From contig JBCCIS010000011.1 in the NCBI GenBank assembly GCA_039028155.1, forward strand, positions 62,001 through 126,000: a DNA stretch of 64,000 bases, given 5' to 3'. The translations under genes and the position numbers were made by a program. Position 1 is the first letter of the stretch. Every line of letters begins with the position of its first letter. The notes under the pieces were generated by a model that did no database searches, had not been told where the DNA came from, and was given only the letters and a program-made list of their open reading frames with translations. The DNA is from Pseudomonadota bacterium (GTDB lineage Bacteria > Pseudomonadota > Alphaproteobacteria > SP197). Positions 6,082-9,183 of the stretch are shown piece after piece.

Positions 6082-7221
6082 TTGAATCACACGACAACGA
6101 CATTTGGCCTGACCGTTCAAAACACGGACGGTGAAGCGCGCACCGGCACGTTGACGACCGCTCATGGTCCGGTGCGCACGCCCGCCTTCATGCCGGTCGG
6201 CACCGCGGCGACGGTCAAGGGCATGTTGGCCGATCAGGTGCGTGGGGCGGGCGCGGATATCGTGCTCGCCAACACCTATCATCTGATGTTGCGTCCGGGG
6301 TCCGAACGCGTCGCGGCGCTGGGCGGCTTGCACCGCATGATGGATTGGCCGGGCCCGATCCTGACCGATTCCGGCGGCTACCAGGTCTTCTCTCTGGCCG
6401 AGCGGCGCGAGATCACCGAGGCCGGCGTCACGTTCAAGAGCCATGTGGACGGCAGCCGGCATGAGCTGACACCCGAACGCGCCATGGCGATCCAGAACGA
6501 TCTGGACGCCACCATCACCATGGCACTGGACGAGTGCACCGCCTGGCCGGTCAGCCACGATGTCGCGAAGGACTCGATGGAACGTTCCATGCGCTGGGCG
6601 GGACGGTGCCGCGAGGCCTTTGTCGAGCGGCCGGGCTACGGCCTGTTCGGCATCGTCCAGGGCAGCACCTTCGAGGACCTGCGCCACGCCTCGGCGGACG
6701 CCCTAACCGCGATCGGTTTCGACGGCTATGCGATCGGCGGCCTGGCGGTTGGCGAGGGTCAGCAGATGATGTTCGATGTGCTCGACATGACGATGCCGCA
6801 CTTGCCGGCGGACCATCCGCGCTACCTGATGGGCGTCGGTCGCCCCGATGACATCATCGGCGCGGTGAAGCGTGGCATCGACATGTTCGATTGCGTGCTG
6901 CCGACTAGGTCCGGGCGAACCGGCAAGGCCTTTACGTCGCGCGGCACCGTCAACATCCGCAACGCGCGACACCAGGACGACACACGCCCGCTGGACGAGA
7001 CCTGCTCGTGCATTGCCTGCACGCGCCACAGCCGCGGCTACTTGCATCATCTGTTCCGCTGCCAAGAGATGCTGGGACCGATGCTGCTGACGATCCACAA
7101 CATCACCTTCTACCAGAAGCTCATGGCTGACTTGCGCGGCGCCATAGCCGGCGGCAATTTGACTGTTTGGGCCGACGACTTCCTGGCCGCCTATGAACGC
7201 GGTGACATAAATCCGCTATAG
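6082..7221 (+). CDS. tgt: Queuine tRNA-ribosyltransferase (tRNA-guanine transglycosylase)
   Basis: Tgt exchanges guanine 34 of tRNAs with GUN anticodons for the queuosine precursor preQ1. The 379-residue protein carries the substrate-binding block [12 protein letters not shown], the [11 protein letters not shown] loop, the second catalytic block [15 protein letters not shown], and the zinc site [17 protein letters not shown] with three cysteines and a histidine. The start is a TTG at 6082: no ATG occurs before the conserved [13 protein letters not shown] block, and the preceding residues ([17 protein letters not shown]) match the family N-terminus. Together with queA upstream it supplies two consecutive steps of queuosine synthesis. 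map follows 38 bases downstream. Confidence 0.95.
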
Positions 7222-8884: not shown

Positions 8885-9183
8885 GCGCCCGTAGCTCAGG
8901 TGGTAGAGCAACTGACTTTCGATTGGGAGCCCCGGCGGGAAACCGTCGGGTGACAAGGTGTCAAATTCGGGGAACCCTCAGCGGCTGGAAGGCCGGTGGC
9001 AATCCCGAGCCAAGCCCCAGGGAGCACGTCCTGGGGAAGGTGTAGAGACTAGACGGCACCCGCCTACGTCCCCATGGGATAGGGCGAAGGTATAGTCCGG
9101 GCCACAAACCCGAAAGGGGCGGCGAAAGCCGTGGTGGTGGAGTAATCAGTGGGTCCTAGGTTCGAGTCCTAGCGGGCGCACCA
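8885..9183 (+). tRNA. tRNA-Lys(UUU) gene interrupted by a group I intron
   Basis: Exon 1 is 8885-8919 and exon 2 is 9143-9183. Joined, they give a 76-nt cloverleaf. The acceptor stem is GCGCCCG with CGGGCGC, the D stem GCTC/GAGC, the anticodon stem ACTGA (8911-8915) with TCAGT (9146-9150), the anticodon loop CUUUUAA, the T stem CTAGG/CCTAG, the discriminator base A9180 and an encoded CCA end. The anticodon UUU and A73 identify tRNA-Lys. The gene stands alone, 50 bases after the DUF4197 gene and 33 bases before the homocysteine methyltransferase-like gene. The intron separates anticodon positions 35 and 36, so no functional tRNA can form without splicing. I cannot tell whether the genome has another tRNA-Lys(UUU). 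Confidence 0.93.
8920..9142 (+). ncRNA. Group I intron (IC3-like), probable self-splicing ribozyme
   Basis: A 223-nt intron without an open frame. The 5' splice site follows U8919 and the last intron base is G9142, as the class requires. The internal guide pairs with both exons. P1 joins 8926-8929 (GGAG) to exon CUUU 8916-8919, with U8919-G8926 as the splice-site wobble. P10 joins GAUUG 8921-8925 to exon UAAUC 9143-9147. Other elements: P2 is an 8-bp stem with GAAA loop (8931-8950). P3 is GGTG 8957-8960 with CACC 9057-9060. P6a is CCCCAGG/CCTGGGG (9015-9036). P7 is GACTA 9047-9051 with TAGTC 9093-9097. P9 is GGC-GAAA-GCC (9121-9130). The core (GTGTAGAGACTAGACGG, ATAGTCC) is what I recall of the Azoarcus tRNA-Ile and cyanobacterial tRNA-Leu introns. 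Confidence 0.92.

Follow-up and report, generated by a model that had tools for sequence, protein, structure and literature searches.

Group I introns interrupt the tRNA-Leu(UAA) gene in cyanobacteria and plastids. In Alphaproteobacteria they are recorded from tRNA-Arg(CCU) of Agrobacterium and Bartonella (BbgpI) in the parts of PMC7717549 that draw on Paquin 1999, and the Bartonella intron self-splices in vitro and is spliced in vivo (PMC7717549). In acetic acid bacteria, too, a group I intron has been noted within a tRNA-Arg gene (PMC4596401), and further anticodon-loop introns are those of Azoarcus tRNA-Ile(CAU) and cyanobacterial tRNA-fMet (PMC3984707, PMC8450103). tRNA-Lys is not named as a host in the sections searched of the review PMC3984707, PMC8450103, PMC4033280, PMC11835236 and PMC6125680. 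The literature searched, largely outside the subscription journals, contained no paper that names tRNA-Lys as a credible bacterial group I intron host, which agrees with the first-pass annotation of this DNA, to which tRNA-Lys(UUU) was not known as a host. One paper claims that cyanobacterial tRNA-Lys, tRNA-Gly and tRNA-Arg contain group I introns 22-49 nt long, with the 49-nt one in tRNA-Lys (PMC5733544); we set this precedent aside because such lengths are far too short for a group I core.

In the window (the whole 64,000-nt stretch of DNA analysed), we are highly confident that positions 8885-9183 represent the sole tRNA-Lys(UUU) gene of the genome, split between U35 and U36 by a small, endonuclease-free, probably IC3-like group I intron and spliced to a mature tRNA. 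This is the best explanation of the intron architecture, the covariation, the intact spliced tRNA, the lack of another such gene, the intron-free sisters and the homologues at the same site. As far as the literature searched shows, it is a known kind of element in a new host and at a new site. Like the tRNA-Arg(CCU) introns, it is small, endonuclease-free and located in the anticodon loop, with a U before it and a G at its end, and R1, our model of the proteobacterial intron core, matches two of those introns (L110 and L111), indicating a related core. However, L110 and L111 are inserted after U36, whereas the intron in the window follows U35 and lies within the anticodon. It shares with the tRNA-Leu(UAA) introns the splitting of the anticodon and a related core, as R1 matches these introns too, but they are inserted between U34 and A35 and the intron of the window is not nested among them. 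A tRNA-Leu(UAA) intron is present in a genome of the same family (G006, L033). The Azoarcus tRNA-Ile(CAU) and cyanobacterial tRNA-fMet introns occupy other hosts and are likened here by description only.

Taking out the 223 nt at 8920-9142 leaves 8885-8919 and 9143-9183, which join to a perfect tRNA-Lys(UUU) of 76 nt with an encoded CCA end. ARAGORN reported zero tRNA genes in the unjoined window and a complete tRNA-Lys(ttt) for both the joined 76-mer and the joined context. The removal of 223 nt put forward in the first-pass annotation is thereby borne out at its exact coordinates, and a tRNA search of the spliced 76-mer, a kind of check it proposed, returned the expected tRNA-Lys(ttt). The features are listed in Table 1.

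Table 1. Coordinates of the exons, the intron and its helices in the window.
Feature	Position	Strand	Basis
Exon 1, tRNA-Lys(UUU) positions 1-35, ending ...ACUGACUUU	8885-8919	+	ARAGORN on joined exons; 100 % identity with G003
Group I intron, 223 nt, between anticodon U35 and U36, terminal G	8920-9142	+	RF00028, model R1, covariation
Exon 2, tRNA-Lys(UUU) U36 through CCA	9143-9183	+	ARAGORN on joined exons; comparison with G003
P1, exon CUUU 8916-8919 with guide GGAG 8926-8929; wobble U8919-G8926 at the 5′ splice site	8916-8929	+	Paired in 21/21 homologues
P10 half of guide, pairs with exon UAAUC 9143-9147	8921-8925	+	Sequence, per-pair counts
P2, 8 bp, GAAA tetraloop	8931-8950	+	Both-side changes in 7/8 pairs
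P3, 8957-8962 with 9055-9060, crosses P7	8957-9060	+	100 % paired; both-side changes in 4/6 pairs
P4 (8967-8972 with 9003-9008), encloses P5	8967-9008	+	100 % paired; one pair G-C to U-A
P6 and P6a (9015-9021 with 9030-9036)	9009-9041	+	P6a: 4/5 counted pairs covary
P7, 9047-9051 with 9093-9097, includes predicted guanosine-binding G-C pair	9047-9097	+	100 % paired; both-side changes in 2/5 pairs
P8	9062-9085	+	Covariation analysis
P9 region, two short GAAA-loop hairpins (9109-9118, 9120-9131)	9102-9137	+	Alignment, covariation

Regarding the splice sites, both registers proposed earlier for the guide sequence (8926-8929 with CUUU and 8921-8925 with UAAUC) are correct pairings, and the junction U8919/U9143 is upheld. 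The cloverleaf together with the U...G rule is nevertheless insufficient to fix it, as a junction after U8917 is equally clean and gives the anticodon AGU. Other splice sites would produce another tRNA, either Thr(AGU), which obeys the U...G rule, or Arg(UCG), obtained at the default intron position of ARAGORN, and by score alone both are cloverleafs. However, Arg(UCG) violates the rule of a U at the end of the 5′ exon, and Thr(AGU) breaks the P1 pairing kept in 21 of 21 homologues. The exon sequence UAAUC is invariant among the homologues while the bases preceding the final G vary, and the uninterrupted genes of the sister genomes are tRNA-Lys(UUU). Three features exclude the junction after U8917, namely a tRNA body of the Lys type, the conservation of the exon UAAUC and the invariance of P1, and we give other splice sites practically no chance.

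The Rfam group I intron model RF00028 matches 8909-9122 over its whole length (1-253) with 46 bits and E=1.7e-10. The score falls just under the curated gathering score of 50 bits, which is why the match is absent from the default Rfam listing. A wider Rfam scan missed several homologues backed by covariation and R1; as these were missed and the window returned none, Rfam at its default threshold is ill suited to judging introns of this sort. R1, which was built partly from this very intron, scores it at 134 bits. No second group I intron was detected in the same genome by RF00028 or R1. All the elements named in the first-pass annotation (P1, P2, P3, P6a, P7, P9, P10 and the terminal G) were identified, and P4, P5, P6 and P8 as well. 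The core is small, without P5abc or P7.1/7.2, carries GNRA loops on P2 and P9 and resides in a tRNA host, and these sequence features would be in keeping with subgroup IC3. The core fills the 223 nt, there is no ORF of 100 aa within them, and none of the long ORFs around the intron, read by eye, resembles a homing endonuclease. Promoter and terminator scans gave no result. An ORF at 6082-7221 of the window, 1.7 kb upstream of the split tRNA, reads by eye like a queuine tRNA-ribosyltransferase.

Covariation was analysed on an alignment of 21 introns at the same site, from this and other genomes, with the classical helices drawn onto the sequence of the window. Standard pairs occupied 92.8 % of 1168 cells, compared with 80.9 % in shuffles and 28-47 % when the partners were slid; drawing the structure on the window's own sequence favours this figure but not the both-side changes, which were found in 27 of 60 pairs. 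The covariation score was 0.341, against 0.131 for shuffles and at most 0.062 for the slid controls. The core helices P3, P4, P6 and P7 are 100 % paired across the homologues, and neither the U-G pair at the 5′ splice site nor the terminal G varies (21/21). At the third pair of P1, U-A replaces U-G in two of the 21, and of the five P10 pairs in the window three are kept in 20-21 homologues and two are confined to nearer relatives. The minimum-energy fold of the precursor lies 2.6 standard deviations below shuffles, which is weak evidence beside the covariation.

Identity between the window and a genome of the same genus (G003) reaches 100 % in the exons and 96 % in the intron, compared with 85-90.5 % for the flanking coding DNA and 82-86 % for the spacers. 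The changes in the intron are mostly in the loop regions of P5, P6a and P8. The excess over the flanking genes indicates that the intron is held in shape. These identities between two genomes argue against a tRNA gene that has died, its intron in decay, while another tRNA reads the AAA codons, and the complete pairing of P3, P4, P6 and P7 speaks against it as well. Such a gene would be compatible with the RF00028 score under the gathering cut-off and with the draft state of the assembly, but no other UUU anticodon was present among the tRNAs found and AAA codons are in use; we therefore consider a dead gene very improbable.

The tRNA model recovered 43 tRNAs from the genome, with one Lys gene among them, of anticodon CUU. 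No other UUU anticodon occurs among these 43 (5.3 Mb draft, 118 contigs, 97 % complete), although gaps in the draft, which could hold a second tRNA-Lys(UUU), limit the claim of a sole gene. The 48 long ORFs of the window use 136 AAA and 369 AAG codons, and a CUU anticodon is unable to read AAA. The split gene should therefore be essential for AAA decoding, which as long as this tRNA-Lys(UUU) is the sole one would need its splicing. On contig 6 of the same genome (L046 14.2 kb, L015 16.2 kb) we noticed a degenerate second copy resembling tRNA-Arg(CCU), 2 kb from the intact one, such as an integrated element might leave.

Uninterrupted tRNA-Lys(UUU) genes were found in 13 of 14 genomes of other genera within the order, and no tRNA-Lys(UUU) was found in the fourteenth (G009). 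In one intron-free sister the tRNA is followed by the same homocysteine methyltransferase-like gene as in the window. This leaves two histories, a gain of the intron in the genus of the window or its loss in the sisters.

In a scheme that borrows both its sequence of steps and autocatalysis from the established group I mechanism, the precursor would fold around the P3-P7 core and guanosine would attack after U8919 within P1. Next, while P10 keeps exon 2 in place, U35 would attack after G9142, and the joined exons would give mature tRNA-Lys(UUU). We infer that the RNA catalyses its own splicing and does so efficiently in the cell. The tRNA introns of Azoarcus and Anabaena splice in vitro, which counts against a strict need for a host protein in the removal of this intron. 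The small Bartonella tRNA-Arg(CCU) intron does so as well (PMC7717549). Some group I introns need protein partners (PMC3984707), but dependence on such a partner appears unlikely to us in this case.

We searched 84,980 species genomes for 5′ halves of tRNA-Lys with CTTT not followed by T. The pattern returned 59 stretches, 37 of which, spread over several phyla, are tRNA-Lys(UUU) genes split by inserts of 199-357 nt; all 37 gave tRNA-Lys(ttt) once joined, and L073 among them belongs to the genome of the same genus. The 22 uncounted stretches are mostly other or variant tRNAs without an insert, and some are fragments or run off the contig end; R1 had zero matches in the 13 of them that were searched. 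The pattern is blind to introns that start with T at U35/U36 or with another base at U34/U35, and as it misses introns of this kind (L130, L134), 37 is a minimum. With the taxon labels of the assemblies taken as given, 20 records have the U35/U36 site and come mostly from acetic acid bacteria, Sphingomonas and Tistrella. The carriers include Acetobacter, Gluconobacter, Gluconacetobacter, Brytella, Sphingomonas, Tistrella mobilis, unclassified Alphaproteobacteria and two assemblies labelled Gammaproteobacteria. In the other 17 records a terminal G is obtained only with the site U34/U35; these carriers are planctomycete, Kuenenia-labelled, Poribacteria and Rhodothermales assemblies, Nesterenkonia and Ferrovibrio. 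Among U34/U35 introns, R1 is strong for Nesterenkonia, Ferrovibrio and L134 and weak for some from planctomycetes and Poribacteria. The Rfam group I model matches L095 and L051; the remaining introns of the planctomycete type (L050, L077, L083, L089, L092, L093 and L099) were accepted by position, length and tree only.

By the same kind of pattern, no intact tRNA-Lys(UUU) was found in 12 of the 14 carrier genomes searched, including Tistrella mobilis and a one-contig Rhodothermales genome; Nesterenkonia and Ferrovibrio have one intact gene each. In many carriers an essential decoding step would depend on a ribozyme. As gene finders miss split tRNA genes, lysine AAA decoding looks absent where the gene is only split; the zero result of ARAGORN in the window and a phage record without annotation (see below) are examples.

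In trees of 63 and 37 introns, the planctomycete/Poribacteria set forms a separate deep branch. The introns of Nesterenkonia and a Gordonia phage pair up outside the U35/U36 set, near Ferrovibrio and the tRNA-Leu(UAA) introns. The U35/U36 set groups with three tRNA-Lys(CUU) introns, one tRNA-Thr(UGU) intron and L134 (support 100/98). These placements indicate that tRNA-Lys(UUU) was probably invaded by introns more than once. The AU test (p=0.146) speaks neither for nor against a single clade of all U35/U36 tRNA-Lys(UUU) introns. L134 (genome G026) is a tRNA-Lys(UUU) intron of the lineage of the window with its splice site one nucleotide over, at U34/U35, a shift that looks like intron sliding.

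The closest relative in another host is L112, which occupies the same U35/U36 position in tRNA-Lys(CUU), a different isoacceptor, and has its first ten bases and the 3′ end GGTGGAG in common with the intron of the window. Its row in the tree alignment was overlong at the 5′ side, and the filling filter removed the surplus columns. The guide GGAG pairs with the Lys(CUU) exon CUCU through C-G, U-A, C-G and U-G, without the internal wobble of the window, whereas with CUUU a second wobble arises; in two Sphingomonas introns the guide base of this second wobble has become A. The better fit to CUCU hints that Lys(CUU) may have been the earlier host. Together with the position of L112, it leads us, with less confidence, to place the intron in a proteobacterial lineage moving among tRNA-Lys isoacceptors. 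L112 (G385) and L120 (G245) are both group I introns in tRNA-Lys(CUU) at U35/U36, and a 5′ fragment of a second tRNA-Lys(CUU) lies just upstream of L112.

A broader scheme is possible, which we put forward tentatively and hold to be somewhat doubtful. Introns of bacterial tRNA anticodon loops would take part in a guide-directed traffic that still goes on, with one lineage, whose internal guide fits both, in Lys(CUU) and Lys(UUU) and another moving between Leu(UAA) and Lys(UUU) at their common site U34/U35; phages with intron-split tRNA genes would spread them, and in many carriers the sole AAA decoder would be ribozyme-dependent. The occurrence of several hosts and of two positions in one tRNA makes the choice and change of host by tRNA introns testable.

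The first-pass annotation had given tRNA-Arg(CCU) and tRNA-Ile(CAU) as the known proteobacterial hosts, which proved too narrow. We drew 385 genomes evenly from the class of the window; most of their tRNA introns lay in Leu(UAA), and others in Arg(CCU), Lys(UUU), Lys(CUU) and Thr(GGU). A Tritonibacter replicon has a group I intron in Thr(UGU). This wider range makes the intron of the window less exceptional than had been held. Hosts were assigned by scoring cloverleafs whose junction falls within the anticodon loop; automatic assignment by ARAGORN over all pairs of splice sites was too permissive and was replaced. L129, L132 and L167 are group I introns after U36 in tRNA-Thr(GGU) and tRNA-Thr(UGU).

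A 2014 review places phage group I introns all within protein-coding genes (PMC3984707). In an isolated phage, Gordonia phage Daredevil (NC_048021.1, about 41.8-42.1 kb; L165 1455-1768) we found a tRNA-Lys(UUU) split at U34/U35. The 238-nt intron is of group I (R1 98 bits) and the joined exons give tRNA-Lys(ttt); the split gene is unannotated, intergenic and adjoins an integrase gene. At least 120 stretches of putative viral contigs contain the core motif GGAAGGTGTAGAGACTNGACGG. Among the 80 stretches listed (L170-L249), about 30 proved to be split tRNA genes; Leu(UAA) is the main host, and the further hosts are CAU, Lys(UUU) (L217), Lys(CUU) (L182) and Arg(UCU). A DNA match to the intron core is also present in 1265 plasmid records, most of them enterobacterial. 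Two of these, Escherichia coli IncF plasmids (L166, L169), were examined, and in both a group I intron splits tRNA-Leu(UAA), in one of them near aac(3)-II.
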